Source: Paracoccus sp. MKU1
Lineage (GTDB): Bacteria > Pseudomonadota > Alphaproteobacteria > Rhodobacterales > Rhodobacteraceae
Reading direction: 5' to 3'
Assembly: GCF_001447385.1 (NCBI RefSeq)
Contig: NZ_LLWQ01000064.1
Coordinates: forward strand, 1-64,000
DNA: 64,000 nucleotides
Shown here: positions 529-62,216 of the stretch, piece by piece
Layout of the letters: every line of letters begins with the position of its first letter
Numbering within the stretch: position 1 is the stretch's first letter
Made by a program: the position numbers and the translations under genes
Notes under the pieces: generated by a model
Database searches by the model: none
What the model was told of the DNA's origin: nothing
The model's input: the letters and a program-made list of their open reading frames with translations, nothing else

Positions 529-3500
529 CTATTTATCGAGGTTCTTCTGTCGTGAAAATGCGGACAGATCGAGGGTCAATGCTTGCAGTGATCGCGTCGT
601 TTCCACGTCGTGATGCGTCAGGAGATCGACAAGATCCTCTTGGTTCGGCTGTCCCAAAGCAAGGCGATAGAGCAGCCTCTGCGTCCTCAATTTCGCAAAT
701 CGATCAATGTCGCGACTTTGGGGAAGCGCGAACAAATGTCGCTTTAGATCTGCGCCTTCCATCGCCCACCACGGGCTGAGGCCGGTTTTATCATTCGCGA
801 ATGCCTTGTCGGCGTCGCGTGCGATGATGTCCCACGGCGACGATGCTTGGCCTCGTGCTTGCGCAAGCGCTTGTTCACCTAGTTTTCGGGCGAGCGGTTG
901 TCGGACAGTCAGTCCGCCGAAGCGCTGAACGCGGCCTTCTCGTTGCTCCAGGTCAACCGGGCTGGAACAAAGATCCCAGTGGCCGAGCCTGTCGCACCAA
1001 CTATGAAAGTCGAGACCTTCCTGTCCGACAGAGGTTGTTGCCAGGACGTGGGGCCAGAACGGCGTGTTGAACGCGCTGCGGATTTCCTCAGAGCGCGCCG
1101 GTGGCGGTTCATTGACATCATGGTCCTGTCGATGCGCCTCTGTCTCGGCGCCCCCAAACGGCACCGCAGCGTGACAACGGATACGAATTTTGTCCTTCTT
1201 CTTCGCCCCCTTGAACCCGAAGGTGCCGACGTTCGCTGCGAGCGCCGTCGACAGATCCTCAATCAGCCCATCAGGGTTGACCTTGGATTTGCGCAGCCAA
1301 AAATGTTCGTCGAGGACGGCCTCCAGGCAGCCATCAACGCACGCATTCTGATATTTCTGCGTGGCGTCCTCGCCGGGCAAGACCGACCAGAAAACAGGGC
1401 GATCCAGATAGGTGCGCAGCCGTGTCCAGCAGAAGCGTACGAGCCGCGCGAAATGCTGCTCCTGGAAATCGAAAAGGTCCGGAAGGTGGCGATAGAGTGC
1501 TCGGCCAGTCACGACGCCAGGGGCGCCGAGAGCCATATCCACCAAGGCGTCCAACTCCCACCGGCTTAGCCAGGTGATCGCCTCTGCCTCTTGGCGCTGT
1601 TTGAGCAATGTTTGAAGTGTCGCATCCTTCTGTGCGACCCGGCCCCAGTTCTTCTGGACCACCGCGAACTCCCGCGCCAGCGGGGCCTTCTGCGCGTGCT
1701 CGATGGCAGCGAGGATCGCCCATGCTGGTTTGCGGCGTCGGTTGCTACGCGCATTCGGAGCATCCGGCGCGATCGTCGGGGGCAACGCCTGAATAATCTG
1801 CTGCCGTGCCCTGTCCCTGATCTGCTTCATCGCCGCCTTTCCCTTCACATCGAGCGGATCGACAGCGCGGATCAGGAAGGGGCTCGGGTGAAACAGGGCG
1901 AGCGTGGGCCCTTGGTTGGGCTTCGGATTTAGGTGGCGTTTCTTCCACGCGGCGGCGTAGGGAAGACTGCTTTTCCCAACGTATTTGCGCTCGACCTCTA
2001 GGCTGACAAGGGCTGCCAGGCTTTGCGGCGTGGCCCTGAACCGGCTGAAGATCAGCATCTTGGGTGATTGCGTCACCTTCGCCCATGGGCCGGAAGGCGC
2101 CCACCAAGTCAGCGATGGCAACACCCATGGGAGCGCAAGGGCCTCCGTCGGCACAAGGTCGTTGAGGGCGCGGAGCTTGGCGCTTCCCCAACCGTCTTTG
2201 GGCGGCTTGAAGCAATTGGTGACTCCAAGCCGGGGGACGCTGCGCGTGGCTGGAAAATCTATGTCGCGAGAAATCAGGTATCGGTCCCCCAACGCTTGCG
2301 CAGGGAGAGGCACTGAAAGCCAGTAGCCGATCGCGCTGCCCGCGAGCTTGGGCGGCACATGGTCGGTGAAATGGCGATAGACGTCGAGATCGTGGGGCTC
2401 GATCCTTACGGACGGCGGCGCAGGCTCTCCGGCATGGTCGGAAGCCGGACGCTCGGTCCGCGACATGAGCGGTGTGAGGAGCGCCTCGAGATGATGCTTG
2501 AGCGTTTGCGCCTCTTCGATCGCCGCCGTTCGGCTATCGGGTGGCAGGTGGCCGATCAAATGCAGGAGATCGCCAAAACGACGAAATTGGGTTTCAGCCT
2601 CAGCGCGTACAGCCGACCCGCCCAGAAATTCGATAATCTCGAAAAATTCGACATGAGGAGCAGCCCCAGCGCCGCTTTCCCAGCGCTCGGCATAGAAGCG
2701 ATAGGGCGTGGCGGACAGGAGGAGGATCGGCGGCGGCGTCCCTCCATCTATTCCTGCCAGCAATTGACGCGCCAAGGGATTATCGGCGCCTGCGTCGAGC
2801 AGCTCGCGATAGCATTGGAACTCGTCGAAAATGACGAGATCGGGCGGGGCGGAATCCAAAGCGGCTTGAGCGAGCGCCTTCCGCATCCGGCCCAAGCTCT
2901 GGCCATGTTTGCTCGTATCGATCGCGTGCAGAATGTTTTCGCGGGCCGGCTTGCCAAATTCCGCGCGTAACGCTCGGCCATAAGCCGTCTTGAAGAGGGC
3001 GGAGACATTGTCGAACTTGCCTTGAGCTTCCTCGCACGCCCATGGCCAGCCGGACGTTGCGCCATATTCGATATAGCCTTCCGGAAAGGCCGCGGTCAGG
3101 CCCGGGTATAGTTCGTCCAACAGGAGCTTGATAAACGCGCGCTCGACAGCCTTTCCGCCGTAGAGGCGCTGCGAGCTGGAGAACGATGTGGTGGGTGTAA
3201 AGGCGTAGAGCCGCAGCTTTCCCTTCCGTTTTTCCTCGAACGGAATGAGACCGACCCGGTCGATGATGGAGAGTGCGTCCTTGGCGTCGTCCTTGTCGAG
3301 GAAGCGCAGCAGTTCGACCTTGTTCTGGTCCGCGACTTTGAGCCCGCTCGTAATATAATAGACCGTGAACTTACGCGCTTTGCCCGCCAACGCCGCAAGC
3401 GTATCTCGGGCGACGACGGTTTTTCCGAGGCCGACTTCGTCCGCAACAAGAAACCGGCGCAGTGGGTTGCATCCCGATAGGGCGGCAGTTGCAGCCTTGA

Positions 3501-3537
3501 CCGTCGCGGCCTGGAAGGGTTTCGATCTTGCGCTCAT
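529..3537 (-). CDS. Large SF2/SNF2-like helicase of the PLD-DUF6361 gene trio
   Basis: The 1002-residue protein is an ATP-dependent helicase or translocase. Motif I (ADEVGLGKT) is at residues 32-40, a DEFQ motif II at 238-241, SATP motif III near 275, and a C-terminal helicase motif VI (QREGRVQRFGG) from about 865. The ADEVGLGKT form is typical of SNF2-like enzymes that move on duplex DNA. The roughly 585 residues between motifs III and VI form a long unassigned insert. The start ATG overlaps the TGA of the PLD gene (ATGA), so the two are probably translationally coupled. It is the last gene of the six-gene leftward operon. A defence role is inferred from neighbours; the helicase assignment itself is firm. 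Confidence 0.85.
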   Translation of the reverse strand: MSARSKPFQAATVKAATAALSGCNPLRRFLVADEVGLGKTVVARDTLAALAGKARKFTVYYITSGLKVADQNKVELLRFLDKDDAKDALSIIDRVGLIPFEEKRKGKLRLYAFTPTTSFSSSQRLYGGKAVERAFIKLLLDELYPGLTAAFPEGYIEYGATSGWPWACEEAQGKFDNVSALFKTAYGRALRAEFGKPARENILHAIDTSKHGQSLGRMRKALAQAALDSAPPDLVIFDEFQCYRELLDAGADNPLARQLLAGIDGGTPPPILLLSATPYRFYAERWESGAGAAPHVEFFEIIEFLGGSAVRAEAETQFRRFGDLLHLIGHLPPDSRTAAIEEAQTLKHHLEALLTPLMSRTERPASDHAGEPAPPSVRIEPHDLDVYRHFTDHVPPKLAGSAIGYWLSVPLPAQALGDRYLISRDIDFPATRSVPRLGVTNCFKPPKDGWGSAKLRALNDLVPTEALALPWVLPSLTWWAPSGPWAKVTQSPKMLIFSRFRATPQSLAALVSLEVERKYVGKSSLPYAAAWKKRHLNPKPNQGPTLALFHPSPFLIRAVDPLDVKGKAAMKQIRDRARQQIIQALPPTIAPDAPNARSNRRRKPAWAILAAIEHAQKAPLAREFAVVQKNWGRVAQKDATLQTLLKQRQEAEAITWLSRWELDALVDMALGAPGVVTGRALYRHLPDLFDFQEQHFARLVRFCWTRLRTYLDRPVFWSVLPGEDATQKYQNACVDGCLEAVLDEHFWLRKSKVNPDGLIEDLSTALAANVGTFGFKGAKKKDKIRIRCHAAVPFGGAETEAHRQDHDVNEPPPARSEEIRSAFNTPFWPHVLATTSVGQEGLDFHSWCDRLGHWDLCSSPVDLEQREGRVQRFGGLTVRQPLARKLGEQALAQARGQASSPWDIIARDADKAFANDKTGLSPWWAMEGADLKRHLFALPQSRDIDRFAKLRTQRLLYRLALGQPNQEDLVDLLTHHDVETTRSLQALTLDLSAFSRQKNLDK

Positions 3538-5342
3538 GAGGCAAGCTGGGTCCGCGCGATAGCCCAGATCTGAGCGAGTTCGTTTAAGTCAGCTCTCTCC
3601 GTTTCGCTCAGGTTTTCGCCGTGGGCGAGAAGCGCATCCACATAGGGCGCAAAATGGCGATCGACCCGGCCGAAGGCTTTGCGATCGCGTGCCCAAGCCG
3701 TGAGAATATCCTCCAACGTAAGGCGGTCATAACCCAGGCCTTGGGAGCGGTTGCCCCGCGATCCGGCATCGTCATCCCATGCGCCGCCGCCGACCGGAAG
3801 CGCGTCGCCGTCGAGCATCGCACGCATCCAGTCATGAAATGCGCGAAGCCCCATGTGGCTGGCCAGCGCGGCTAGATCCCGCTGCTCTTCGAGAGGCGGA
3901 TCGACAGTGACCCGCTGCATCCACCGCAAATCGCCGTCTGGGCTGCTTATCCTGACCTGAATGAAGGCAGATTGAAGTGACAAGGGGATCGGTCCAAGAC
4001 CGAGGCGGACGGCGTCGGTCGGCCAAGTCAGCAGGTCGCCATTTGCAGGTCCGGCGTGCAGCACATGGTCAGGGTAGGCGAGCGAAGGAACCGCCCGGGC
4101 ATCGATCGAGAAGCATTCCCCGTCGCGGCGCAGAACCGGGTCCCAGGAGGCCATGAGCACCTTGCGCGACTCTTCCAGCGCATCGGCTGCACTCACGCTG
4201 CCCAGGTCTGCGGCGGCGAGTTCCTCTATGGTGACAGGCGTCGCTTTGCCGACTAGGAACGCCAGGCCGGAAGAGAACGCTTCGCCCGCCTCGAGTTCGA
4301 CCATGATTTCCGAGTTGCGCCCGGACCATGCCCTTTCGGTCGCATTGGCGCTTCCGACCCTCAAGATGGTCTTCTCGCCCGAGTGGAAGCAGAAGATCTT
4401 CGCATGGAGAGCAAGGGGCGCCGGCTCCACATCATCTTCGGCCACGGGTTCGTTGCCGCCGGGCAGAGCGAGCGTAGACTCGTCAGCGAGCACGTCTGGC
4501 GCCGCATAGGCCAGGATTTTCGAGAAGCCGGTCAGCGATGTCCTGGACAGGCTGGCGATATCGGCAAGAGCCGGCATCGACGAAATCAGCGTTCTGGATT
4601 CAGCGGGCCCCCACTTGCCGGCCCTTTTTAGAAAGTCGGACGATAAGAACGGGCTGATGACCGTTATGCCGTTGATCGCGCCGGATGGCGGCTCCACTGG
4701 CAAGGGAACGCCTTGGTCCAGCCCATTGAGGAGGCCGCGTAAGCGAAAGCCGTCGGGCGCATCCCACCAGATCGTCTCCAGCTGCTTCGAGATGTCATCG
4801 GCATCCTCGCGCGATGCGGAGCGTGCGAGAGTGCCTCCGAGCGCGCCGACGCCAGGGAGCCGAACCCGTCCCTTCGCGCGCTTTTCGCTGCCATCCAGCA
4901 AAACGCCAGCGTCGAGATCCTGAGATCGGGTGAGGTTCCGGCTGCCAATCCAGAGCTTCCAGCGCGTTTCCGCTTTGGGGCAGTTATAGGCGACCAGAGC
5001 AATCTTCGGATGCCAGCTGCGCTCTCGTTCATCGTAGGGTTGCTCGACGATGAACTGATCGAGGATGCCTGCGATACGGGGAAGCGCCACCGGGCGCGCG
5101 ATCCTCCCGCGCTGGATGATGATCCTGACGTGATCGCGCAGCCTGTCTATCGCTTCGGCAAAATCGACCGCTGTTCCGCTGCCCTTGTCATTGTTGCGAC
5201 CAATCAGGGCGAGCAACACTGCCGCGACCGCAGACAGGTCGACCGAGTAGGTCGCGAACAATGCGAGCTTGACCGTCTCCAATCGTCCAGGCCGCAGTTC
5301 GTCGAGGTATGGCTGGCCGTCCCAAGCCTGCCGATCGCTCAT
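3534..5342 (-). CDS. Phospholipase D-fold protein with two HxK motifs, probable nuclease
   Basis: The 602-residue protein has two PLD-type half-sites. The first is HPK at 111-113 followed by GSRNLT at 133-138; the second is LHAK at 312-315 followed by GSANAT at 330-335. This HxK(x)nN/S arrangement is that of PLD-superfamily phosphodiesterases, including the nucleases and DISARM DrmC. The C-terminal 250 residues are unassigned. The start at 5342 was chosen over an upstream ATG because it forms an ATGA overlap with the DUF6361 stop. DrmC is much shorter, so this is a distinct PLD family placed between DUF6361 and a helicase. DNA cleavage is an inference. Confidence 0.83.
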   Translation of the reverse strand: MSDRQAWDGQPYLDELRPGRLETVKLALFATYSVDLSAVAAVLLALIGRNNDKGSGTAVDFAEAIDRLRDHVRIIIQRGRIARPVALPRIAGILDQFIVEQPYDERERSWHPKIALVAYNCPKAETRWKLWIGSRNLTRSQDLDAGVLLDGSEKRAKGRVRLPGVGALGGTLARSASREDADDISKQLETIWWDAPDGFRLRGLLNGLDQGVPLPVEPPSGAINGITVISPFLSSDFLKRAGKWGPAESRTLISSMPALADIASLSRTSLTGFSKILAYAAPDVLADESTLALPGGNEPVAEDDVEPAPLALHAKIFCFHSGEKTILRVGSANATERAWSGRNSEIMVELEAGEAFSSGLAFLVGKATPVTIEELAAADLGSVSAADALEESRKVLMASWDPVLRRDGECFSIDARAVPSLAYPDHVLHAGPANGDLLTWPTDAVRLGLGPIPLSLQSAFIQVRISSPDGDLRWMQRVTVDPPLEEQRDLAALASHMGLRAFHDWMRAMLDGDALPVGGGAWDDDAGSRGNRSQGLGYDRLTLEDILTAWARDRKAFGRVDRHFAPYVDALLAHGENLSETERADLNELAQIWAIARTQLAS

Positions 5343-6556
5343 ACGACATCCTCCAGATCTCGCAGGAGCCGCTTCACATTTCCCCAGCGATAATGCAGCG
5401 GCTCGGCGCGACCATGTCGCTCGCCCTGCCATTCCATGCGCCGATCGACGCCGAATTGGTTGTTGGCGAGACGCGCACGATCATCCTTCCTGCTGACCTC
5501 CGCCCGCGCGTACACGTCGAGCAACGGCATCGGATCCTTGCCATTCGCCCGAACCCAGGCCGAAGTCTCCTTCAGAACCCCTTCAACCGCGGGCGGGAGG
5601 TGGCCGATTTCGGCGAGAAACAGGTTCATATCCAGCCGAGCGGCCGGTCCGCCCCATTGCTCGACCGCGTCTTTCAGCGCGGCGCGATGTAAATTTGGCT
5701 GCGGCCGCTTGTCGCGCGTTTCCTTGAGTATCTCGACCTGGGCCGCATAAATCGCCCTGCCAATGGCCGACAGCGCCGCCGCCTGGCCGGTCCGCTTCAG
5801 CATGGCGGCTTCCTTGTCGGCGAGCGCGAGAATTTCGCCGTCCCAGCAGTGATCTGCCTCGTCGAGCGGCTTTCCAACCAGTTTCGACAAGAGCGAGGGC
5901 TCCCCTGGATCTGTCGGTGAGCGAACGGCGCGCAGTTTGGTCGCGAGATAGATCTGCTCCGGCGGTGAAAGCTCGAGCGTGAGTTTCCCTCCGCCATCCC
6001 AGTCGCCGGGGGCATCGATCAAGCCTGAGATGGGCCAGGCAACCGTCTCGAAGGGCTTCCCGTCATCGTCATGAAGCGTGCGCTTGCCGACCGCCGCCAA
6101 GAGCTTCGCCATATCCGGGCGGCTCCACGGCCGGCCATCCGGGCGGGTGCCGATCAGTCCCCACTTGGCGAGGGCTGTCCAATAGACATAGGCTGGCGGC
6201 TGGCTGATCGCTCGGGGGAAGACGTCCCCGCCGATCACCCCATCTTTCTCTCCGCCCACGCCATCGACATATTTGAGACGGCCGGTCAGCTCGTGTTCGA
6301 GATCGGAAAAGGCTTGGCCAAAATCCTTGGGGACAGGGCGCTTCGTCCGCAGGCTTTGGTAAAGCCAGGGGATGAGAAGCGCGTAGCGCAGCCGTGTGTG
6401 CAGAACCGATGTGCCGGGGAAGAAGTGATCGGCATAGCGCTGGTGGACGATGAGGAACCCGACCTCATCGCGCACCCCCGCTGCGCCGCCGAACATCATC
6501 TGTTCGGCCTGGCCCAGCGCTTTGCGCGACAAAAAGGTGAACCCAAAAGATGACAC
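5339..6556 (-). CDS. DUF6361-family protein of unknown function
   Basis: The 405-residue protein resembles what I know as DUF6361: an N-terminal MSSFGFTFLS, then HTRLRYALLIPWLYQ, and a conserved region near residues 140-180. No enzymatic motif can be seen. It starts with GTG, supported by a GGGGAGG site five bases upstream. It is the fourth gene of the leftward operon, 61 bases after the SF2 helicase gene, and overlaps the PLD gene by an ATGA junction. From memory, DUF6361 genes often sit beside PLD and helicase genes; this locus shows the same trio. It may be an adaptor or sensor, but the function is unknown. Confidence 0.7.
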   Translation of the reverse strand: MSSFGFTFLSRKALGQAEQMMFGGAAGVRDEVGFLIVHQRYADHFFPGTSVLHTRLRYALLIPWLYQSLRTKRPVPKDFGQAFSDLEHELTGRLKYVDGVGGEKDGVIGGDVFPRAISQPPAYVYWTALAKWGLIGTRPDGRPWSRPDMAKLLAAVGKRTLHDDDGKPFETVAWPISGLIDAPGDWDGGGKLTLELSPPEQIYLATKLRAVRSPTDPGEPSLLSKLVGKPLDEADHCWDGEILALADKEAAMLKRTGQAAALSAIGRAIYAAQVEILKETRDKRPQPNLHRAALKDAVEQWGGPAARLDMNLFLAEIGHLPPAVEGVLKETSAWVRANGKDPMPLLDVYARAEVSRKDDRARLANNQFGVDRRMEWQGERHGRAEPLHYRWGNVKRLLRDLEDVV

Positions 6557-6617
6557 GAAGCCTCCCCCAAGGCGTGATTAAACCTGCAGCTTAAGAATAT
6601 TTCAGAGTCGAAAGACA

Positions 6618-9600
6618 TCATTCGCTACCAATAATTTTCAACCTCATAGCGCGGGTTTCGAGTAAATAGGTTTCAACCCCGGCAAGGAGATGCAAGCCTT
6701 CTTCGCCGATTGCTTGCCGCGATAGCCCGGGTTGCACGATGCGGACGTCGAACTCGAAGCGGTGATCTTGCCACCCGACCTTGAGTTTCTTGATGGCGGC
6801 GGCCGAGCCTTGCTCAATCCGAGAACTGAGGCCGCGGTCCCGGCGCATCTTTTCGCGCCTCAGCATATGTTGAAGCATACGGCCTGGCCGGTCGCGCCAC
6901 CGAGCGGATTTCTGAGCCTGGCCGCAAACCTCGTAGAGGTCGCTGAGACGCGCACCTGGCGTATCCGTCCCGGAATACTTGCAGTGATACAGGGTCACGG
7001 AAACGACGCTGTCGGTGATGCGCAGCGCCACGACATCAGCGATCTCGCCTTTGCCATCATCGTCGAAGATCACATCATAGGGATCGGGGGCCGCCAGCAG
7101 CGTGTCGATGACGAGACGCTGGACTGAGTCTGCGCGCTTACTCGTGCCTTGAGACTCGACGCGGATATTGGCCTTCGACCAATCCCAGGCTTCGATCTTG
7201 TCGGATGGGTAGGGCTCGATCGTTTCGCCTTCGGGCAGAGTGTAGAGATGGCTGTAGATGAGCAGCGAGCCATCGCCGAAGTCGATTTGTGGCGAATCCT
7301 CGCCGAAGGATTCGGACAGCGTCTGCATCTTGCTGCCGACCTTGATCGTCGCCTTGGGACCGGCGCGCTGGGGGTAGCGGGCATGCCCATCGCTGAAGAC
7401 GATCTCGAACTCGGCCGTGTGGTCATCGCTCCGCACGGCGAAGCGCAACGGTCCGGAACGAGCGTTATCGAGCAACTCGATATCGCATTCCGCGAAGGTT
7501 ACGGGCTCATCGCCGAACGAGATCTCGATCCGCTCCTCAAACTGCGTGATCAAAGATTCAGGCCAATGGATCGCCACGGGTGGAACAGCCGGGCGCTGGC
7601 TGATCTGGTGGGGGCGCATCGCGCTCTTGAAGACGCCGTCGGTCGTGATGCTGGGATCGTTCACCGTGCGACCGACATCCTGGCACCAGTCCACCCAGTC
7701 GGTCAGGTCATGGACCTTGGCGCTGGACCAGAACTTGCCCTTCGCCGAGCATCCGCGTGAGGCCGGCACGCCGTCGAGAAAACCAGTGGCGAAGATGTTG
7801 TTCTTGATCCGCGACTGGGATTTCGCGCTGTCGAGGCCGTCGGCGACGTCCACGCCCATATACATGGAATAGCGGACGCCGCGCCCCTGATGGTGGGTGA
7901 GGCCGAGGTTCCGCAGGATGAGCCGCTTGAACCCGTGGAGGCTGCGGAACACTTCCTCGCCTTCTACGCGGCGGGTCGTATCGCCGCAAACCGCCTTTGC
8001 CAGGCGGTCGAACGGCCCCTTGGCGGAACTGCTGATGTAGAGCAGGCCACTTGCCTGATCCCAGTGGAGCATGTGCAGATCCCAGGTGACGTTTACCGCC
8101 TGCTGCGCCGAGGTCCAGCGCGCCTGTTCCTCCGCCCGAGTCACGAAGATCGCGACCCGTTGATGCGGGTTCAGTTTCATGCCGAGATAGACGCCGGGAT
8201 TGTAGAGTTCCTCCGCGCGAAACGGATCCCAAGCATCACAGGACGTCCGGTAAAGGACCGCGTTCATTTTCGGCTCGAGGGTCTGGAGCGGAATGTCGAT
8301 CAGATCCCCCGAAAAGCCCTTGAACATCTCGGCGCGGCGAACCTGGCGTTCGATCTTGGCCGAACTGAGCGCCTCTACCAGCGCGTTCCAGTCGGCGTCC
8401 TCGGCGTAGAGCTTGGCCAGCGAACGATCAACATCGTCGATGCCGGTATTGGCGATCACCGTCGCATCACCCAGGGTTGGGTCCTGGCGGGTAAAGCGGC
8501 CGACGAACTGGATCGTCACCGCCACGCTCTTGTGATGATCGTGCAATGCAGCGATCTTCAGCTCGGGCAGGTCAAAGCCCTCGCCGAGCATGTCGACACA
8601 TACGATAATCCGGCTCTCAAAGCGGCGTAGCGCTGCCAGATTTTCACGCCGCTCCTTCAGCGATTGCTGGCTGTGGACGATGACAGGCCGGTAGTCCGGA
8701 TAGGCCGTCGCATAGAGGCTATGCAGGTGTTTGGCGCGTTCGATGGTGCTGCAACGGGCCATCGCCAGATGGTTGAGGCCGGCGTCCAGGTCCGAGGCGA
8801 GCACTTCGCCGAGCTTGTCGATGATCGCCTGGTCGGCGTCGGCTTGATCCAGCCCGAATACGGCCTCGAAGCGGATCGGCTTGAAATAGCCTTCCTGCTG
8901 CGCCTTTTTCAGCGGGTAGGTGTAGATGAACTCCCCATCGACGCGTCCACCATCCTCACGAAACGGGGTGGCGGTGAACTGGATCACCGGAATGGGCGGC
9001 TCGTGCTCGGCGAAGAGCCCGCGAAAGGATTTCCACGTCCGTGCCCCGATGTGATGTGCCTCGTCGATAAAGAGTGCGGAGGCACGGGCCGCCATCCGTT
9101 CCTGCACCGGCGCCTCGGCGCGACCCGCGATCTGCATCGTGGTGACGACGACATTGGCGCTGTCGAAGATTTCATCGACTTCGGCTTCGCTCGCCGGAAT
9201 GTGCGAGAGCCGCATGACCAAAGGGAAGGCTGCGGTCTCATCGAGACATTTCTGCTGTTTCAGGACGCCGAAGGTCTCGAATTTGCCCGCGATCTGCTCA
9301 CGCAGAGCGTCGGTGGGGACCACCACCAGCAGGCGCTCGAACCGCCGTTTGGCATTGAGCGCCAGCATTGTCTCGGTCTTGCCCGTGCCCGTCGGCATGA
9401 CGATGGTGGCCGGGTCCGTCGATCGTGTCGCATGGGCAAGCGCGGCGTGAAGCGCGCCGATCTGGGGACGCCGCAAGCCAGGCTGCGCCGGCTGACCGTC
9501 CGCCGCGGCTCGTCCCTCGCGCAGATGTATCGCGTCGATCCAGGACGCGGAGACCGCCTTCAGACGCTCGGCGCGTGCGGAACGATCCAGCGTGTCGATG

Positions 9601-9959
9601 CTGGTCGGCGGTGCATTCATCCACCGGCCTTCACCCAGTTCGAGCGCATCGGCGATCCGTTCCGGATCCGTTGCGCCGGGCACAAGGAGAACGAGATCGG
9701 CTTCCAATGGCGTCGCCGTCTTCGCACTGATGATCTTCAGAATCTCGCCGGAGTCCAGGGTCGTCTCGTGACCATTGACGCGGCGGATGGCGAAGGGCCG
9801 CAGCCGGCATCGCACCCTCAGCGTCGGAACCACCAACTGGCGCACGGGGCTTCCCAGCACTTTGCCATCAATGGCAAGCCGAGCCGGCAGCAGGAGTTCG
9901 ACCTCGGGATTGAAGAGATCGTCCTGATTGGGGCCGGCGGGGCGCTTGCGGGAGGCCAT
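6618..9959 (-). CDS. SF2 DEAD/DEAH helicase with C-terminal nuclease-like domain
   Basis: The 1113-residue protein has motif I PTGTGKT at 189-195, DEAH at 299-302, a TATPFRED motif III near 330, and a C-terminal RecA lobe with DMLGEGFDLP and QFVGRFTR. It therefore looks like a type III/I-restriction-like SF2 translocase. Near the C terminus, residues 966-994 contain a GEIADVVAL strand followed by LYHCKYS, which fits the D-(x)n-xxK spacing of a PD-(D/E)XK fold with an atypical third position. The start at 9959 has GGAGGGAG seven bases upstream. It lies 14 bases after the AddA-like gene. The helicase call is firm; the nuclease tail is a hypothesis. Confidence 0.83.
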   Translation of the reverse strand: MASRKRPAGPNQDDLFNPEVELLLPARLAIDGKVLGSPVRQLVVPTLRVRCRLRPFAIRRVNGHETTLDSGEILKIISAKTATPLEADLVLLVPGATDPERIADALELGEGRWMNAPPTSIDTLDRSARAERLKAVSASWIDAIHLREGRAAADGQPAQPGLRRPQIGALHAALAHATRSTDPATIVMPTGTGKTETMLALNAKRRFERLLVVVPTDALREQIAGKFETFGVLKQQKCLDETAAFPLVMRLSHIPASEAEVDEIFDSANVVVTTMQIAGRAEAPVQERMAARASALFIDEAHHIGARTWKSFRGLFAEHEPPIPVIQFTATPFREDGGRVDGEFIYTYPLKKAQQEGYFKPIRFEAVFGLDQADADQAIIDKLGEVLASDLDAGLNHLAMARCSTIERAKHLHSLYATAYPDYRPVIVHSQQSLKERRENLAALRRFESRIIVCVDMLGEGFDLPELKIAALHDHHKSVAVTIQFVGRFTRQDPTLGDATVIANTGIDDVDRSLAKLYAEDADWNALVEALSSAKIERQVRRAEMFKGFSGDLIDIPLQTLEPKMNAVLYRTSCDAWDPFRAEELYNPGVYLGMKLNPHQRVAIFVTRAEEQARWTSAQQAVNVTWDLHMLHWDQASGLLYISSSAKGPFDRLAKAVCGDTTRRVEGEEVFRSLHGFKRLILRNLGLTHHQGRGVRYSMYMGVDVADGLDSAKSQSRIKNNIFATGFLDGVPASRGCSAKGKFWSSAKVHDLTDWVDWCQDVGRTVNDPSITTDGVFKSAMRPHQISQRPAVPPVAIHWPESLITQFEERIEISFGDEPVTFAECDIELLDNARSGPLRFAVRSDDHTAEFEIVFSDGHARYPQRAGPKATIKVGSKMQTLSESFGEDSPQIDFGDGSLLIYSHLYTLPEGETIEPYPSDKIEAWDWSKANIRVESQGTSKRADSVQRLVIDTLLAAPDPYDVIFDDDGKGEIADVVALRITDSVVSVTLYHCKYSGTDTPGARLSDLYEVCGQAQKSARWRDRPGRMLQHMLRREKMRRDRGLSSRIEQGSAAAIKKLKVGWQDHRFEFDVRIVQPGLSRQAIGEEGLHLLAGVETYLLETRAMRLKIIGSE

Positions 9960-9973
9960 CGTGTCTCCCTCCG

Positions 9974-12900
9974 TTAGGTCGCCACCGTCTGTGGCGAGGG
10001 CGAGACGGCAATCACCATTCCCCTCGTCATCAGAACGATGAGCCCGCGCTCGGCGCCGGTCATATCGAGATAGGCGCGGACCTGAGCCCGATAGTGGTCG
10101 AGCGTTTGAGCCTCGGGATTCACGTCGCTCTTCCAGTCGACAACCACGACGGGCCGGCCATCCTCGCCAATAGTCAGAGCGTCTGTGATCCCGGCCGTTG
10201 CGGTTTCTACGCCATCGGACGCCTGTGCGGCATAGACGGGAAATTCGGCCAGAAGGTCCGGCCGCAGGATCGCAATGTCGGGTAGGGCGAGGGTTTGCAC
10301 GACACAGGCGGCCAGTTCTTCAGCCGACAGCCCCGTCGCCGGGGCGGAGACCGGAGACCGGCCGAGGGCGTGGATGAGGTCGGCCGCCCGGTCGGTCAGG
10401 GCGGCTTCCGCCTCCGAGGTTTCGCCGGTCAGCACCTCTTCCATGAGCTTGTGGAGGATCAGCCCGCGCTCCCGGCCGCCTTGCACGAGGGCAGCGGCTT
10501 CCAGCTCGGGAGGCTGGTCGTCGGCCAACCCGGTCCAGATTGCGGCTTCTTCCTCCCGCAGCACGATCCCGGCGGCGTTTTCGTCGCGGCTGGGAGCAAG
10601 CCAGGTCAGCCGCGTCTGCGCGGCTGTGATGGTTTCGGCCTCGGCGGCGAAGGTCGCGCGCGTCTGGGTATTGTCCGTGCCCGCTCCTGCGGCCGTGAGG
10701 CCGGCAGGCAGATGGGAGGCGTCCAAGCCGGGCAGGTCGGCGAGCGACAGATCGACGAGACCGATCCAGGCGGATTTCGACGGCGTGGTGTCGAGCCGGG
10801 GGAGGACGAGAAGTTCGCGGGCGCGAGTGGCCGCGACATACCAGAGCCGGATGCGTTCGCGGTCCAGCTCTTCCTTTTCCGCTTGGCGCGCGGTTTCGTA
10901 GCCTTCGGGTGCGACGCCCAGGACCGGGCAATAGAAAGTCTCGGTCTGGCGGTCGATGACGGCGCTTTCGGGCGCCATGACGCCGGTCATGGTATTCACC
11001 GGAATGACGATCGGCCATTCCAGCCCCTTGGCCGCGTGCATGGTGAAGAGCGCGACCGCTTCCTCCTGCGCGTCGGGCCGTCCCTCGACGGCGCGCGCCT
11101 CGTCGGACCACGCTGCTGTCATCGCCTCGGCGAAGGCGCGCAGGCCGCGCACGGCGTAGCCGGTCGACAGGCTGAGATAGAGGTCGATGTTGGCGAGCGC
11201 GCGCTCGGCCTGGCCGCGATGGCGCTCGAGGAGGAGCGGGCGGACGCGCATCACGTCCACGGCCTGCGAGAGCAGTTCGTGCGGGGTCGTGCTGTTGCCG
11301 CGCCGGGAGAGCGATTGCAGCCGCTCGATGACCGCGCGCGCGAGTGAGTGCGTGATGACGGCCGGGTCGATGCTGAGATCCAGGCGCGGAATCCGATCCG
11401 GCTGTTCCTTCGAGCGCGGAAGTCCCCAGACGATGTCCAGCAGGTCTTCTTCGGTGAGGCCGACCAGAGGTCCGCGCAGCAGCGCGCCGAGCGCCAGCGT
11501 GTCGCGGCGATCGGCCAGGACGCGGGTCAGCGCAATTAGGTCCTGGATTTCCTGGCGGCGGAACAGCCCCTTGCCGGCTTGGGTCGCCACAGGGATGCCC
11601 CGGCGCTCCAGGGCTTCCTCATAGCGCCACAGCTCCGCGCCGGTCGGCGCCAGCAAGGCGATGTCGCCCGGCTGGCAGGGACGCTCCGCGCCGCTGCGAC
11701 GATCGATGATTGGGTGGCTTTCGATCAGTCGGGCGCACAGCTCGGCGATGGCGTCGGCTTCGGCGTCGCGCTGCTGTTCGGCGCTGGCCTTGCCGTTTTC
11801 GTCCGCTACCGCGATGTCGAGGGCCGCCACGCACAGGCCGCCTCGGTCGCTATGGAACGGGTCGAGAGCGGTGAAGCCCGGCTGCCCATCGGCCGAGAGC
11901 ACGGCCTCGAAGCGTTCGTTGACGAAGGTGAGGATCGAGGCGCAGGAGCGGAAATTGGTGGAGATCGACAGGAGACTGTCGGGGTCTTGGACGCGAAAGG
12001 CGTCGCGCGCCTGCACATAGGCGCCGACATCGGCGCCACGGAAGCGGTAGATTGCCTGCTTGGGATCGCCGACCAGGAAGAGCGCTCCCGGCCGGATCCG
12101 GAAGCGGGTCCAGTCGTCATTGCCTTCGACCGGCTCGCCGCAGAGCCGCCAGAAGATCTCGGTTTGCAGGGGATCTGTGTCCTGGAACTCATCGACGAGG
12201 ACATGAGCGAAACGCTGTCCCAGCGCGCGGCGAACCTCGTCATGGTCGCGCAGCATATCGCGCGCGGCGAAAATCAGATCGTCGAAGTCGAGCTGGGCGC
12301 TTGCGCGCTTGTGGTCGCGGTAGCGTTGCAGGACAGGACGCGCTTCTTCGATCAGCGCCGCCAGGGCCTGGCTGGCCGCAGCCTGAAGAAGCGAAATCCA
12401 GGCATCGCAGCAAGCGGTGTAATGAGCATCGGCGTCGTCGTTCAGCCGATCACCATCGGCTTTCGAGAGGCCAGCCTGTTTTGCAGCGGCGGCCCATTTG
12501 CCCTTCTTGCGATAGGAAGCGAAGGTGCCGGATTTGGTGCAAAGGTCGGGATGCGGCCGTGACGTCAGGAGTTGGACGAGGCCGGCGGGGGTTGCGGGAT
12601 CGGAGCCATTTGCCAACGCGGTCGCCATCTCGACCAGCCGTTCGACGATCACAACCGTTTCCGGCTCGGTCGTCCCTGTCCCATGCATGAAGCCCGCGAA
12701 ATCCGCCGCGGCCTGCCGGAACGCCGTCAGGCGGCCGTCAAGCGGGGATATGGGCGGCGCGGCGAGGGTACGGCGGCGGCGCAGATTTTCGGCAATCTTG
12801 TGAACGAGCGCCACGGTTTCGCCGGGGCTGTGCAACACCATCTCTGCGAGGATGCCGCCCTGGCCGCCGGACAGGCGCTCGCGCAACCAGCCATCAACAA

Positions 12901-13369
12901 TTTCGAGGAAGGTGAGATCGGCCTGATTGCGATCCATGACGCCGGCGCCGGGATCGATGTCGGCCTCCGCCGGATAGGGCTTGATCAGGCGCTGACAGAA
13001 GCCGTGGATGGTTGAACAGGTGATTTCGTCGATCGCGGTGCTTGCGGCGGCGAGATTATCGCGATGGGCCTGGGACAGGCCGTGGGGCAGCGCGACGCGC
13101 AGCTCGGTCGCGATCTTGCCGTCCGAGAGGTCGGCGACGAATTCGCGGACACGGGACAGCAGCTCGCTCGCGGCGAGTTCGGTAAAGGTGACGGCGGCAA
13201 TGGCGCGCGGCGAGACCCCTTCGGCAAGCATCGCGGCGATGCGCCCTGCCATGACGGCGGTCTTGCCCGAACCCGCGCCGGCCTCAACGAGGATCGACCG
13301 ATCATGGAGGCTGATCGCGTCGCGGCGCGCGCCGTCATCCTTCAGCACTGTGGACACTCTGCTCATCAT
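9974..13369 (-). CDS. AddA-like UvrD helicase with PD-(D/E)XK nuclease domain
   Basis: The 1131-residue protein has the SF1A architecture of AddA/RecB: Walker A AGAGSGKT at about 30-37, a DEFQDTDPLQ motif II near 400, VGDPKQAIYRFRGAD (motif III), and a C-terminal nuclease block at about 1060-1100 with GITDAL, VVVDWKSD and a QxxxY element. AddA homologues resect double-strand ends in the chromosome. This copy lies in a mobile-element operon with PLD and DUF6361 genes, so a role in degrading foreign DNA is plausible. The annotated start at 13369 (or the adjacent ATG at 13366) forms an ATGATGA overlap with the AddB-like stop; the upstream extension of the frame only overlaps that gene. Confidence 0.85.
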   Translation of the reverse strand: MMSRVSTVLKDDGARRDAISLHDRSILVEAGAGSGKTAVMAGRIAAMLAEGVSPRAIAAVTFTELAASELLSRVREFVADLSDGKIATELRVALPHGLSQAHRDNLAAASTAIDEITCSTIHGFCQRLIKPYPAEADIDPGAGVMDRNQADLTFLEIVDGWLRERLSGGQGGILAEMVLHSPGETVALVHKIAENLRRRRTLAAPPISPLDGRLTAFRQAAADFAGFMHGTGTTEPETVVIVERLVEMATALANGSDPATPAGLVQLLTSRPHPDLCTKSGTFASYRKKGKWAAAAKQAGLSKADGDRLNDDADAHYTACCDAWISLLQAAASQALAALIEEARPVLQRYRDHKRASAQLDFDDLIFAARDMLRDHDEVRRALGQRFAHVLVDEFQDTDPLQTEIFWRLCGEPVEGNDDWTRFRIRPGALFLVGDPKQAIYRFRGADVGAYVQARDAFRVQDPDSLLSISTNFRSCASILTFVNERFEAVLSADGQPGFTALDPFHSDRGGLCVAALDIAVADENGKASAEQQRDAEADAIAELCARLIESHPIIDRRSGAERPCQPGDIALLAPTGAELWRYEEALERRGIPVATQAGKGLFRRQEIQDLIALTRVLADRRDTLALGALLRGPLVGLTEEDLLDIVWGLPRSKEQPDRIPRLDLSIDPAVITHSLARAVIERLQSLSRRGNSTTPHELLSQAVDVMRVRPLLLERHRGQAERALANIDLYLSLSTGYAVRGLRAFAEAMTAAWSDEARAVEGRPDAQEEAVALFTMHAAKGLEWPIVIPVNTMTGVMAPESAVIDRQTETFYCPVLGVAPEGYETARQAEKEELDRERIRLWYVAATRARELLVLPRLDTTPSKSAWIGLVDLSLADLPGLDASHLPAGLTAAGAGTDNTQTRATFAAEAETITAAQTRLTWLAPSRDENAAGIVLREEEAAIWTGLADDQPPELEAAALVQGGRERGLILHKLMEEVLTGETSEAEAALTDRAADLIHALGRSPVSAPATGLSAEELAACVVQTLALPDIAILRPDLLAEFPVYAAQASDGVETATAGITDALTIGEDGRPVVVVDWKSDVNPEAQTLDHYRAQVRAYLDMTGAERGLIVLMTRGMVIAVSPSPQTVAT

Positions 13370-16020
13370 TCCGCCTCCCAGATCTGAGCGACTTCGCCCA
13401 GCCGCTCCGTCGCGGCCGGGAGTTTGCGTTTGCAATAGGTGGCGCTGGCGTTGGCCGGCAGGGCGAAGGCGAGGTCGTCATAGTCGCCGCCAGTGTCCGG
13501 CCCAGGCAGCGCCGCGCCGCTGGCGAGGCTGGCCCTCGCCGCGCGGAGATAGCCCGTGATTTCCGTGAGCACCGCCTCGGGATCATCGAGCTGGAGATCG
13601 ACCGGATCTCGCGGGTAGAGCAGCGAGGCGCTGATGGCGACGTCATCGCCAAGGAGCGCTTTCACCGCAAAGGCATAGAGGCAGCGCTGAAGCTCGCGCC
13701 CGCCGTTCAGCCGGATGTTTCCCTGCGGCGTCCGGCCCGTTTTGTAGTCGCGAACCAGCGCACGCTTGCCGTCGCCCGAAATGTCGAGCCGGTCGATATA
13801 GCCGGCGATATTGAAGCCGGTATCGGGAATCGTGACCGGCGCGGTCGCATCCCATGGGGCCTCCGCTTCGGATTTCGGTTCTGAGCCGCCGAACGGCACC
13901 TCGCCATAGGCGCGTGCGCCCGGCAAGGCGTCGTCCCCATAGGACAGGGCGCGGCCCGCCAGCGCGCGGGCGTCGTCGAGGGTGCGGCCCCAGATAACCG
14001 CCGGCGGAACAGGGCGTTCGCTTTCCCAATCGGCGGCGACGGTCTGCGCGGCTCGGGCCACTGCGATTTCGATCATGTCCGTGTCGGCAGATGCGAGCCC
14101 ACCCCCGATCTCGAGGTCGCGCAAGGCGCGGTCGAGAACCAAGTGGACGAGATCGCCGATTCCGAGCGCGTCGAGCACCAGCGGCTCGGCGCTGCTTTGC
14201 GGTTCGCGCCATCCGAACGCATAGATCCACACGAAAGTGAGCGGATTGCGTAGCAGACGGCGAAGCGAACTGGCCGACTGGGTGCGATCGAGAATGGCGA
14301 GAACGAGCGGATGGTCCGCGCGGACGAGCCCGTCATGGGGCGTGATCTCAGTCTGCCGCCAGTCGCGCCAGCAACCTTGCGCGCCGATCGCTTGCGGATC
14401 AGCGGCGAATTCCTGTGGCCGCGCCATAAGACGGTCGGTTTCGCTGAAGGCGTGGGCCGGCGTCGCGTTGCGGCGGAGGTAGGTTTCGGCGCCATGCCCG
14501 GCAAGCAATGGGCTGCGTCCCAGGAGACGGCCGTCGCTGTCGCGCCGGGCGCGCGAGAGAACGACAGCGCCAGCCGTCGTGGCGAGGATCGTCTTGAAAT
14601 CTCGGCGGTCGGCGAGGTTCACCGGAAGCGGATCGAGGACCGGGGTCGGGATGATGTGATCCGGGATCAAACGGTCCTCGGCGATCCCGCGTGGCCAGCG
14701 CGAGGAATTGAGGCCCAGCAGCCGCACGAAACGGCGGGGGGATGCCGCGAGCGCGCTGGCCGGCATCCAGGCGACGGAGACGCAGGCTTCCAGTCCGTCG
14801 TCCTGTTTCAAGATTTCCAGCGTTGCGTCGATCGAGGCGGCAGGCCCGGCGAGCAGTGCCTTGCGCCAGATTGCGTGCGCTCGGCCCTTGAGGAAGGCTT
14901 CACCGATCTCCGCCGCTGCGTCCGATCCTTTCGCCAGAATCTCAACCGCCGAGCGCAGTGTCGGCGCGTGGTTTGCGCCATCGGGCCAGTCGTCTGGCGT
15001 CAGCCTGGCCAGTAGGCGGTTCCAGGCGCTCGGCGTAGAGAGAGGAGCGTCTGTCGGCAGGACGCGCAACCAGCCTTCGGGCAGGGCCTCGAAAGGCCCG
15101 CCGTCCCGGCACAGCGCCGCGAGGCGGCGCAGGCGCGATTGCGACAGGCCGCGAACGACGATGTCGGCCAGCGCTGCGGCCGCCTGGCCCTCGCGCGTGG
15201 CGACGGTTCGGACGCCATGAACGAAGTGCAGGTCGATATTGGCGTCGGCGCGCAGGGCGAGGAAGTGATCATCATAATCTGCGGGCGACGCGGTCGCGAG
15301 GGCGATTTCCGAAGGCGATACGCCCGAGGCGAGGAGGCTTCGCACCCAGCGCATCGCCTCGATGGCCTCGTGATAGGCCGTTGCGGCGCTCACGGCGCGA
15401 ATTTCCGGCGTGTGTGCCGGCGAGCGCGATATGGTGACGCCCGTGCTTTCGAGCCATGTGGGGACGCTCCTTGGGCCGGCCGTCCACTGCACGGGGATAT
15501 GTGCGGTGAGGGCTGCGAGCAGCGGCCTCCAGCAGGGCGAGAGTTCGGTAAGGCCGACGATCTCAATCGGGCCGAGGACGGTCGGTGCGTGACCGATGCG
15601 GGCGATCGCGGCAGTGACGATGTCGAGAGGCCGCATCATGCCGGGCGGAAGCTGATCGAGGACGGCCGTTTCGAGGCGCGCAATCGCGGCGAGTCGGGGA
15701 TGAGCGGCCGCGTGTGCGGCAAGGTTGATGCCCGCGCGCCAGGCTTTGCGGAGCGTATCGACTGCCGCGTCGATCATGCCGGGGAGGATTTTGATGCTCT
15801 CCAGTTCTCCCATCTGGGTCGCCGGCAAGGCCGCCTGAATGGCCGCGCGCAGGTTCTCGTCGTCAATCGGTCGGGCGAAGCCGCCGGCCAGCCGGACGAC
15901 CGCCTGCTCGAAGGACATGACCTGCAGTCCGTGACGCGCGTTCCGGGCCGCCGCCAGCCGGCTTTCCCGCATGGCGAGGCGGCCATGAATGACCAGCGTG
16001 GATCGACTCGGGATGGTCAT
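13366..16020 (-). CDS. AddB-like subunit with PD-(D/E)XK nuclease domain
   Basis: The 884-residue protein is paired with the AddA-like gene as in AddAB nucleases. A C-terminal nuclease block at about 740-790 shows GYIDRLD, LVRDYKTG and a QxxLYAF element (RecB-type nuclease). The N terminus (TLVIHGRLAMRESRLAA) corresponds to the helicase lobe but has no GxGKT loop, as in RecC-like inactivated helicases. The start at 16020 was chosen because AAGGAGAG precedes it; the longer frame to 16152 would enter the divergent promoter. It is the first gene of the leftward operon, facing the WYL regulator. Some AddB proteins bind an iron-sulphur cluster; I cannot identify a convincing four-cysteine set here. 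Confidence 0.8.
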   Translation of the reverse strand: MTIPSRSTLVIHGRLAMRESRLAAARNARHGLQVMSFEQAVVRLAGGFARPIDDENLRAAIQAALPATQMGELESIKILPGMIDAAVDTLRKAWRAGINLAAHAAAHPRLAAIARLETAVLDQLPPGMMRPLDIVTAAIARIGHAPTVLGPIEIVGLTELSPCWRPLLAALTAHIPVQWTAGPRSVPTWLESTGVTISRSPAHTPEIRAVSAATAYHEAIEAMRWVRSLLASGVSPSEIALATASPADYDDHFLALRADANIDLHFVHGVRTVATREGQAAAALADIVVRGLSQSRLRRLAALCRDGGPFEALPEGWLRVLPTDAPLSTPSAWNRLLARLTPDDWPDGANHAPTLRSAVEILAKGSDAAAEIGEAFLKGRAHAIWRKALLAGPAASIDATLEILKQDDGLEACVSVAWMPASALAASPRRFVRLLGLNSSRWPRGIAEDRLIPDHIIPTPVLDPLPVNLADRRDFKTILATTAGAVVLSRARRDSDGRLLGRSPLLAGHGAETYLRRNATPAHAFSETDRLMARPQEFAADPQAIGAQGCWRDWRQTEITPHDGLVRADHPLVLAILDRTQSASSLRRLLRNPLTFVWIYAFGWREPQSSAEPLVLDALGIGDLVHLVLDRALRDLEIGGGLASADTDMIEIAVARAAQTVAADWESERPVPPAVIWGRTLDDARALAGRALSYGDDALPGARAYGEVPFGGSEPKSEAEAPWDATAPVTIPDTGFNIAGYIDRLDISGDGKRALVRDYKTGRTPQGNIRLNGGRELQRCLYAFAVKALLGDDVAISASLLYPRDPVDLQLDDPEAVLTEITGYLRAARASLASGAALPGPDTGGDYDDLAFALPANASATYCKRKLPAATERLGEVAQIWEAE

Positions 16021-16147
16021 GGCCGCTCTCCTTCCGGTTGCTGTATTGCCCGGGCGCGGAGTTATCGCTGGGACCACTGTCGGTTGGCCGGTCATCTCGC
16101 GTTTCGAGTTGTGCCGCTGCATGACTTGCCCCGCCCATGTCCAATCG

Positions 16148-16206
16148 CCCATTGACGGGCGCCCTTAATGGGAATAATAATTACACGCACTTCATCGTGG
16201 TGTCCA
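16148..16206. promoter_or_regulatory. Divergent promoter with inverted-repeat operator between the two defence operons
   Basis: The 221-base gap between the AddB-like and WYL genes contains an AT-rich island. On the plus strand TTGACG (16152-16157) and TAATAA (16175-16180) are separated by 17 bases, a good sigma-70 pair for the WYL gene 62 bases downstream. An inverted repeat CCCATT (16148-16153) / AATGGG (16167-16172) overlaps the -35 and spacer, where a repressor would block polymerase. On the minus strand TGGACA (16206-16201) is a possible -35 for the leftward operon, but I find no good -10 at normal spacing. WYL/BrxR-type regulators of defence loci commonly repress their own promoter through such repeats. 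Confidence 0.5.
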
Positions 16207-16241
16207 TATAGTTTTTATCCTCACTTACGAAACGGGAAGCA

Positions 16242-27816: not shown

Positions 27817-27829
27817 AGGGGTATAGAAC

Positions 27830-62094: not shown

Positions 62095-62216
62095 GGACTG
62101 GAACCTCGGGAGAGCGGGAACGGGAAGCCCGAACGACGCTCTCTCTCGACCGCCCGGACTCACCTCGTCCCGGCGGCCCTCTCACTCTCGAAACGCTTTT
62201 CGCGGCCGGCATGAGA

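Follow-up and report, generated by a model that had tools for sequence, protein, structure and literature searches.

Why would a mobile element carry an AddAB-type enzyme of its own, and why among defence genes? Such enzymes enter DNA at double-strand ends, unwinding and degrading it. The question is raised by a locus of Paracoccus sp. MKU1 (contig NZ_LLWQ01000064.1, of which positions 1 to 64,000, the window, were analysed), in which positions 529 to 16020 are filled by six leftward, co-directional open reading frames (ORFs). These are transcribed in the order AddB-like protein, AddA-like protein, superfamily 2 (SF2) helicase, ZacA (DUF6361), ZacB (PLD family) and helicase ZacC. The placement of the ORFs, proposed in a preliminary description of this DNA, was confirmed, as were the ATGA stop-start overlaps at three junctions (AddB/AddA, ZacA/ZacB and ZacB/ZacC); intergenic gaps of 14 nt and 61 nt separate AddA from SF2 and SF2 from ZacA. 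The locus is put together from exchangeable units, with the AddB-AddA pair as its constant core. We incline, if only by a little, towards reading this mobile pair as an AddAB-type helicase-nuclease that works with interchangeable defence modules as their common partner in degrading DNA ends. The novelty of the locus lies in the joining of the known Azaca system to a mobile AddAB-type pair, the AddB of which is unmatched in PADLOC 2.0.

A mobile AddB-AddA pair separate from the chromosomal enzyme

The AddB-like protein matched Pfam PDDEXK_1 (E 3.1e-16, from a scan of a longer ORF), and the nuclease patterns DRLD...DYKTG and QxxxY were present in 92 of 95 homologues, the exceptions being L118 (cut), L151 and L154. 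Its best Foldseek matches were the AddB chains of AddAB crystal structures (the top four, at E 4e-10 to 2e-9; best 4ceh_B, E 4e-10), obtained with a model of low confidence (mean pLDDT 60.5, pTM 0.33) and at a TM of about 0.25 across the whole chain. The AddA-like protein, scanned as an ORF starting at an upstream TTG, matched UvrD-helicase (E 2.3e-54) and PDDEXK_1 (E 3.3e-5). Among 69 full-length relatives of AddA, Walker A was found in 68, DExQDTD in all, the strict nuclease pattern in 60 and the looser DxK...QxxxY in all. In PADLOC 2.0 this protein and the SF2 helicase matched generic helicase families only. The SF1 motifs and RecB-type nuclease of AddA, together with the modelled fold and nuclease domain of AddB, would place the pair within a broadly defined AddAB type, and its enzymatic activity is predicted from family and motifs. 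All 78 loci in which at least 100 bases could be seen at this point had AddA after AddB.

The window pair scored 18.5 bits against the alphaproteobacterial AddB model (TIGR02786) and 308.6-309.5 bits against the AddA model (TIGR02784), for which the curated cut-offs are 486.5 and 860.75 bits, respectively. The host genome's own pair, situated on another contig, reached 713 bits for AddB and 1157 bits for AddA, and an AddB match of their own was found in all 26 genomes of the family searched, in 25 of them above the AddB model cut-off. In an AddA tree of 49 proteins (the window protein and 28 chosen from the 69 relatives, giving 29 mobile rows, with 15 chromosomal and five ImmA-UvrD proteins), the mobile (support 99), chromosomal (100) and ImmA-UvrD (100) proteins each formed one side of a branch. 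Relocation of the host AddAB to a plasmid was rejected on these scores, the presence of the host's own pair elsewhere in the genome and the tree. The preliminary description had named two outcomes that would count against it, namely grouping of the AddAB-like proteins with the host's chromosomal enzyme and a gene order conserved nowhere else; as the pair is distinct and the order recurs (see below), neither occurred. The idea that AddB of the mobile type is marked by having lost Walker A or the Fe-S cysteines was also considered and was rejected, since Walker A was found in 0 of 95 mobile and 0 of 21 chromosomal AddB proteins, and CxxC in three of 95 mobile proteins and, near the C terminus, in 0 of 21 chromosomal ones.

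An alignment search with AddB returned 238 relatives among 84,980 species; the best 80 of these 238 loci were read for their neighbourhoods, and the survey therefore leans to close relatives. AddB-like proteins were found in nine of 385 genomes of the class and in three of the 101 nearest relatives, the window genome included. The mobile group includes Bryocella, an Acidobacteriota isolate, and two bins labelled Planctomycetota and Poribacteria, and would thus have crossed phyla if these labels are right; a Desulfosarcina plasmid carries a 45% AddB relative. A separate observation concerns L045, a 12.6-kb contig binned as a Xanthobacteraceae metagenome-assembled genome, in which AddB, WYL, HmaA, TmtA and HmaB are 100% identical to the window over the matched parts: either the element is common to different organisms or the contig was mis-binned.

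The mobile-element setting claimed earlier was borne out in the window, where the stretch at 32.4-50.6 kb holds conjugation genes (TrbI, CagX-type, TrbL, TrbE-type, a type II/IV secretion ATPase and a coupling protein) together with an RPA replication initiator, placing the locus on a conjugative element or plasmid. AddB was matched in 63 of 72,556 plasmid records, mainly alphaproteobacterial (39 conjugative, 12 mobilizable and 12 non-mobilizable), and in none of the phage records searched. That 51 of the 63 records are conjugative or mobilizable, that some copies lie 5-14 kb from repABC and that ArdC anti-restriction genes stand downstream in G066 and, by cluster, in L075, L085 and L124 would suit plasmid housekeeping or counter-defence, with the pair acting in recombination or repair of the element or replacing the host AddAB. 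We hold this to be improbable, as only those 63 of the 72,556 plasmid records hold the pair, each genome of the window's family has an AddB match of its own, and PADLOC-named modules flank the pair in 51 of 66 loci.

Exchange of defence modules on both sides of the pair

Flanks were labelled by rule from similarity matches and ORF clusters, the frequent clusters being named by a Pfam/PADLOC scan of one representative each. Downstream of AddA (68 loci), Azaca was found in 18 loci, SF2 followed by Azaca in eight, SF2 alone in seven, SF2 followed by a convergent ZacC in six, SIR2-HerA in four, an unnamed gene (c34) in four, a convergent Shango in three, the UvrD-like c55 followed by Azaca in two, SF2 cut by the contig end in two and nothing recognised in 14. 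Upstream of AddB (72 loci), the labels were Hma with WYL in 27 (three by weak matches: L056, L102 and L110), the ubiquitin-like/ImmA-UvrD type in 12 (three via an ORF antisense to the E1 gene), BREX with WYL in nine, type III restriction-modification (RM) with WYL in five, WYL with nothing else recognised in four, Shango in four, SIR2-HerA in one and none in ten; a divergent WYL gene lay within 600 bp in 45 of the 72. When only Azaca, SIR2-HerA, Shango, strong Hma, BREX and type III RM were counted, a PADLOC-named module was present on at least one side in 51 of the 66 loci with both sides visible, on both sides in 26 and on neither in 15. Adding SF2, the ubiquitin-like operon and weak Hma raised these counts to 60 of 66 and 40 of 66 for at least one side and both sides, respectively. 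A scan of nine neighbours from loci with unnamed flanks gave Zorya ZorA and Wadjet JetA at L092, DRT1a at L094, weaker matches elsewhere and nothing at L120, L110 and L102.

Individual replicons illustrate the range of partners. On a Mesorhizobium plasmid (MesoLj113b2), BREX-1 genes with WYL are followed by AddB-AddA-SF2. On Rhizobium phaseoli pRetBra5b, Shedu-domain, AbiEii, UvrD and multiubiquitin/ThiF genes precede AddB-AddA-DUF6361-PLD-helicase and an endonuclease/UvrD pair, and all of these genes have the same orientation. In all five survey loci with Shango directly upstream (L087, L090, L091, L118 and L123), SngC stops 2 nt short of addB, a spacing that would suit a single operon of Shango and AddB-AddA. 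A Methylorubrum TerB/ATPase/helicase trio stands 272 nt from AddB. As a side observation, a gene combining UvrD helicase, ImmA/IrrE peptidase and RecB-type nuclease (domains taken from the scan of L084 only) precedes addB in L067, L070, L074, L076, L077, L083, L084, L089, L106 and L114, mostly together with a multiubiquitin/E1 operon.

On the AddB tree, the downstream label required at least 26 changes (66 rows, nine states), compared with a mean of 42.4 and a minimum of 37 in 200 shuffles, and the upstream label at least 29 (72 rows, nine states; shuffled mean 41.8, minimum 37). As the changes were fewer than with shuffled labels, the flanks are partly inherited and often replaced.

The downstream exchange occurs at a sharp boundary. 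In 11 of 19 loci chosen from the 80, blastn similarity stopped at window position 10026, 52 nt short of where the addA stop codon ends, and all 11 carry Zac, SIR2-HerA or c55 plus Zac modules. In six of the 19, those having SF2, similarity ran on through SF2, and in L076 and L067 it reached 2 and 8 nt beyond the stop, respectively. The C-terminal residues of AddA varied with the downstream module in the 26 loci compared, and in the closest relatives the addA stop was 14 nt from SF2 or 4 nt from zacA. Upstream, similarity resumed 17-22 bp before the addB start in five of six compared BREX or type III RM loci, the sixth (L063) forming an unbroken block. Traces of former modules were also seen: L112 has kept the first 24 nt of zacA ahead of its SIR2-HerA module, and among the 29 loci in which neither a Zac nor an SF2 start follows AddA, three bore scars that scored well above background (zacA in L112, 28; broken SF2 in L090, 47, and L093, 70). 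In the control of 60 draws the zacA maximum was 13, and one SF2 draw gave 47, equal to the L090 remnant and probably that stretch itself.

Azaca and the SF2 helicase as downstream partners

The preliminary description had given the DUF6361, PLD and last helicase genes by family. The genes are real, and by their PADLOC matches they are the known Azaca system, so that the set is not new: ZacA, ZacB and ZacC stand adjacent in that order at 529-6556 and match over nearly their full length. Two HxK...N motifs were found in 25 of 25 ZacB relatives by a loose pattern (5 of 25 by a stricter one), and Walker A and QRxGR patterns in all 21 ZacC relatives. The claim of at least three nuclease-type sites (AddA, AddB and PLD) is upheld by conserved motifs, and the SF2 tail is a fourth candidate.

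Azaca is associated with the pair beyond the window. Among 190 class genomes, taken on the assumption that both searches covered the same set, ZacA was found in five and AddB-like proteins in six, with four in common. The association held without the window genome (three in common among four and five of 189, p 3.6e-5) as well as with it (p 1.4e-6, the genome having been chosen for carrying both). In G025, a ZacA-bearing genome, an AddA-like gene abuts zacA at the contig end. AddB-AddA-ZacABC also recurs as a 12-kb block, with 95.5% identity over 12,138 nt between a Niveispirillum plasmid and Pigmentiphaga; the match begins one base away from the start of addB. In six other loci, chosen from the 18 with Azaca after AddA, the Niveispirillum AddB-to-ZacC block was 86-97% alike, with Hma, type III RM or DRT upstream. 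The longer order AddB-AddA-SF2-ZacA-ZacB with the start of ZacC, whose conservation had been suggested as a check, recurs in eight of the 80 loci and carries two Azaca types, the window type in five loci and a second type in three (two with identical AddB). Between the two types, ZacA aligns over some 107 of 400 residues, about a quarter of the protein, and is about 40% alike there.

The SF2 helicase matched Pfam ResIII (E 8e-21) and Helicase_C (E 3e-10). Its tail carries D-x16-HCK, invariant across 21 aligned rows, and an IADVV...HCK-S pattern in 20 of 20 relatives, which makes it probably a nuclease by motif; the AlphaFold model of the tail was unusable (pLDDT 40). Close SF2 relatives on plasmids (80-82% identical) were found in seven of 63 records, all of them AddB-bearing, and the other 56 records were less than 60% identical, the one opened having SF2 without AddAB beside it. 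As a separate observation, a Roseovarius sp. THAF9 plasmid (L189) carries a 44% SF2 relative, with a DUF2235 gene 12 nt later and CBASS and AbiEii nearby; there was no AddAB within the 21 kb shown.

The eight further loci with the same order, and the frequency with which Azaca follows SF2 (co-directionally in eight of 21 uncut SF2 loci, and as a convergent ZacC in six, with a ZacA match somewhere in the genome in 6/6), could be taken to mean that all six genes make up a single obligate machine, as the preliminary description had it. We regard this as very improbable. AddAB occurs with Azaca without SF2 in 18 loci, with SF2 without Azaca at the locus in seven, with SIR2-HerA, and beside Shango and others. 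No ZacA match was found in twelve genomes searched (five with SF2 alone, L101 and L093 being outside the search, four with SIR2-HerA and three with c34). The composition of relatives contradicts a single six-gene machine.

The same exchangeability would fit an independent two-gene defence or end-degrading system, situated in a recombination hot spot of plasmid defence islands, with neighbours that are passengers lacking any functional link. The break in similarity comes at a constant position, as a hot spot would give; on the AddB tree the flanks are frequently replaced; AddA has no recognised module after it in 14 loci; and the neighbours are very varied, some having no obvious need of a DNA-end nuclease (multiubiquitin/E1, AbiE and SIR2-HerA). 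This explanation deserves serious weight, although we judge it unlikely: the tight junctions described above (SngC to addB, addA to SF2 and addA to zacA) recur, AddB-AddA-ZacABC enters new contexts as one block, and the six-gene order is kept with two Azaca types that share so little of ZacA.

Proposed function of the pair and points against it

For the shared-partner reading, established AddAB activity and the conserved helicase and nuclease motifs suggest degradation of invading linear or cut DNA as the likeliest working, with the neighbouring module as sensor or cutter. In the window, the pair would act from one operon with ZacABC and SF2 (with its probable nuclease tail), opposite a Hma module that the WYL regulator may control. 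The partner systems would recognise and then cut or nick incoming DNA, through the PLD protein ZacB, the SF2 tail or a neighbouring system. AddB and AddA, presumably as a heterodimer, would then load on the double-strand ends so produced, or on phage genomes that are linear, and degrade them, so that ends made by a partner would activate the enzyme. In an antiphage role the pair may be a second enzyme beside the host AddAB, which phages may inhibit. A more specific version, in which the pair is a plug-in exonuclease hub for Azaca, SF2, SIR2-HerA, Shango, BREX, type III RM and Hma, and the last 16 or so codons of AddA, which vary with the module, perhaps serve for docking, is put forward tentatively.

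Several observations weigh against a shared partner. No protein-level sign of contact between AddAB and any partner was found, and the flanking counts are raw ones, uncorrected for the background frequency of defence modules near plasmid genes of comparable size. Fourteen loci have no recognised module after AddA (L092, with its later JetA match, among them). The common downstream boundary may trace to few events, as the 11 loci share similar AddA tails. Azaca was reportedly named by Millman et al. in 2022 as a three-gene system lacking AddAB; G065 has Azaca and AddAB on separate contigs; and of ten plasmid records with window-like ZacA, in a search blind to the second Azaca type (for example that of pRetBra5b), six hold AddB and four are outside the 60 of the 63 AddB records listed. 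Cases of Azaca and of distant SF2 proteins with no adjacent AddAB were seen as well. Little defence context was seen in some of the 13 plasmid AddB regions opened, such as those of Bosea, where the record ends soon after AddB with AddA out of view, and Bradyrhizobium elkanii, where AddB stands beside HipA and a DNA methyltransferase; several distant homologues lie beside toxin-antitoxin, partition or unannotated genes. As for AddB itself, the overall confidence of its structural model is low, a PDB sequence search with the protein found nothing, and its identity to the host chromosomal AddB is very low, 27% over 202 aa (E 1.5e-4).

If the shared-partner reading is true, some defence systems, although catalogued mostly as separate boxes, share one degradation engine. 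Azaca would gain a testable partner, the literature passages retrieved giving no mechanism for it, and the presence of a second AddAB on conjugative elements would be explained, for example as a reserve when phages block the host's own enzyme. The break near the addA end would also offer a direct route to further modules, by reading what follows it.

Features of the locus

The features of the locus and of the module opposite it are collected in Table 1. The interval between HmaA and HmaB appears as a variable slot, holding a Tiamat-like ATPase in the window and other ORFs, or nothing recognised, in relatives (L049, L053, L055 and L101). Further along the same element, a strawberry-notch-type helicase of 1458 aa is encoded at window positions 57790-62163.

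Table 1. Coordinates of the operon and adjoining genes in the 64,000-nucleotide window
Feature	Position	Strand	Basis or remark
AddB-type protein, 884 aa, first gene of the operon; C-terminal RecB-type PD-(D/E)XK nuclease (predicted)	13366..16020	-	Pfam PDDEXK_1, Foldseek, motifs
AddA-type SF1 (UvrD) helicase with C-terminal PD-(D/E)XK nuclease (predicted), 1131 aa from 13369	9974..13369	-	Pfam, TIGR02784, motifs
Final 52 nt of addA including stop	9974..10025	-	Similarity boundary for loci with another downstream module
SF2 helicase, 1113 aa; C-terminal D-x16-HCK, candidate nuclease domain	6618..9959	-	Pfam, conserved pattern
ZacA (DUF6361), Azaca	5339..6556	-	PADLOC ZacA E 2.5e-88; Pfam DUF6361 E 7.7e-14
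ZacB, PLD family, Azaca	3534..5342	-	PADLOC ZacB E 7.5e-116; PLDc_2 E 1.6e-6
ZacC helicase, Azaca	529..3537	-	PADLOC ZacC E 7.1e-266
Divergent region between operon and WYL gene; upstream exchange boundary near addB start	16021..16241	.	blastn blocks
Divergent WYL-domain regulator	16242..17126	+	Pfam WYL E 1.4e-8
Adjoining Hma-type module	17149..31126	+	PADLOC
HmaA	17149-20664	+	PADLOC E 0
TmtA-like (Tiamat-like) ATPase, inside Hma module	20661-24890	+	PADLOC TmtA E 1.2e-57
HmaB	about 24805-27816	+	PADLOC E 0
HmaC	27830-31126	+	PADLOC E 4.4e-287

Comparison with known systems

A literature search, which most subscription papers lay outside, returned no paper naming DUF6361 and nothing joining 'AddAB-like' with 'defense system' and 'phage'. 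Searches for AddAB homologues or an extra AddAB gave matches on other topics, judged by their titles only; ZacA, ZacB and ZacC as gene names gave an unrelated match only, and many matches to the word Azaca were also unrelated. Related helicase systems are described in PMC12458937, the main text of which does not mention AddA, AddB or Azaca.

With chromosomal AddAB (TIGR02784/TIGR02786) and the Bacillus subtilis enzyme, the window pair shares the AddB-AddA order, the SF1 motifs and nuclease of AddA, the AddB fold, as modelled, and the RecB-type nuclease motif of AddB. It differs in scoring far under both family cut-offs, in forming a separate tree group, in being mobile and beside defence genes, and in size, the window AddB having 884 aa and the host's own AddB a 1002-aa open frame.

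Gabija (GajAB) resembles the pair in combining a UvrD-type helicase with a nuclease partner, and the window AddA matches GajB in part. GajA belongs to the OLD/TOPRIM type of nucleases. The window AddB, by contrast, is predicted to be a RecB-type PD-(D/E)XK protein with an AddB fold (for GajA compare the relevant passages of PMC10952713), and no GajA match was found among the families listed for the six proteins (for AddA, the best 25 of 49). Candidate GajAB-like pairs, annotated as an ATP-dependent endonuclease or AAA ATPase with a helicase, were separately noted near two related AddAB loci.

From Azaca as a three-gene system the window locus differs in that AddB, AddA and an SF2 helicase precede ZacABC in the operon. 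A further likeness, again in an SF1 helicase joined to a RecB-family nuclease, is offered by the UvrD-Cas4-like fusions that passages of PMC5704561 associate with type III RM, WYL and other defence genes and for which an ancillary role in several defence pathways is proposed there. As described in those passages, however, the fusion is a single polypeptide, whereas the window encodes an AddAB-type pair of two subunits, flanked on either side by exchangeable modules.

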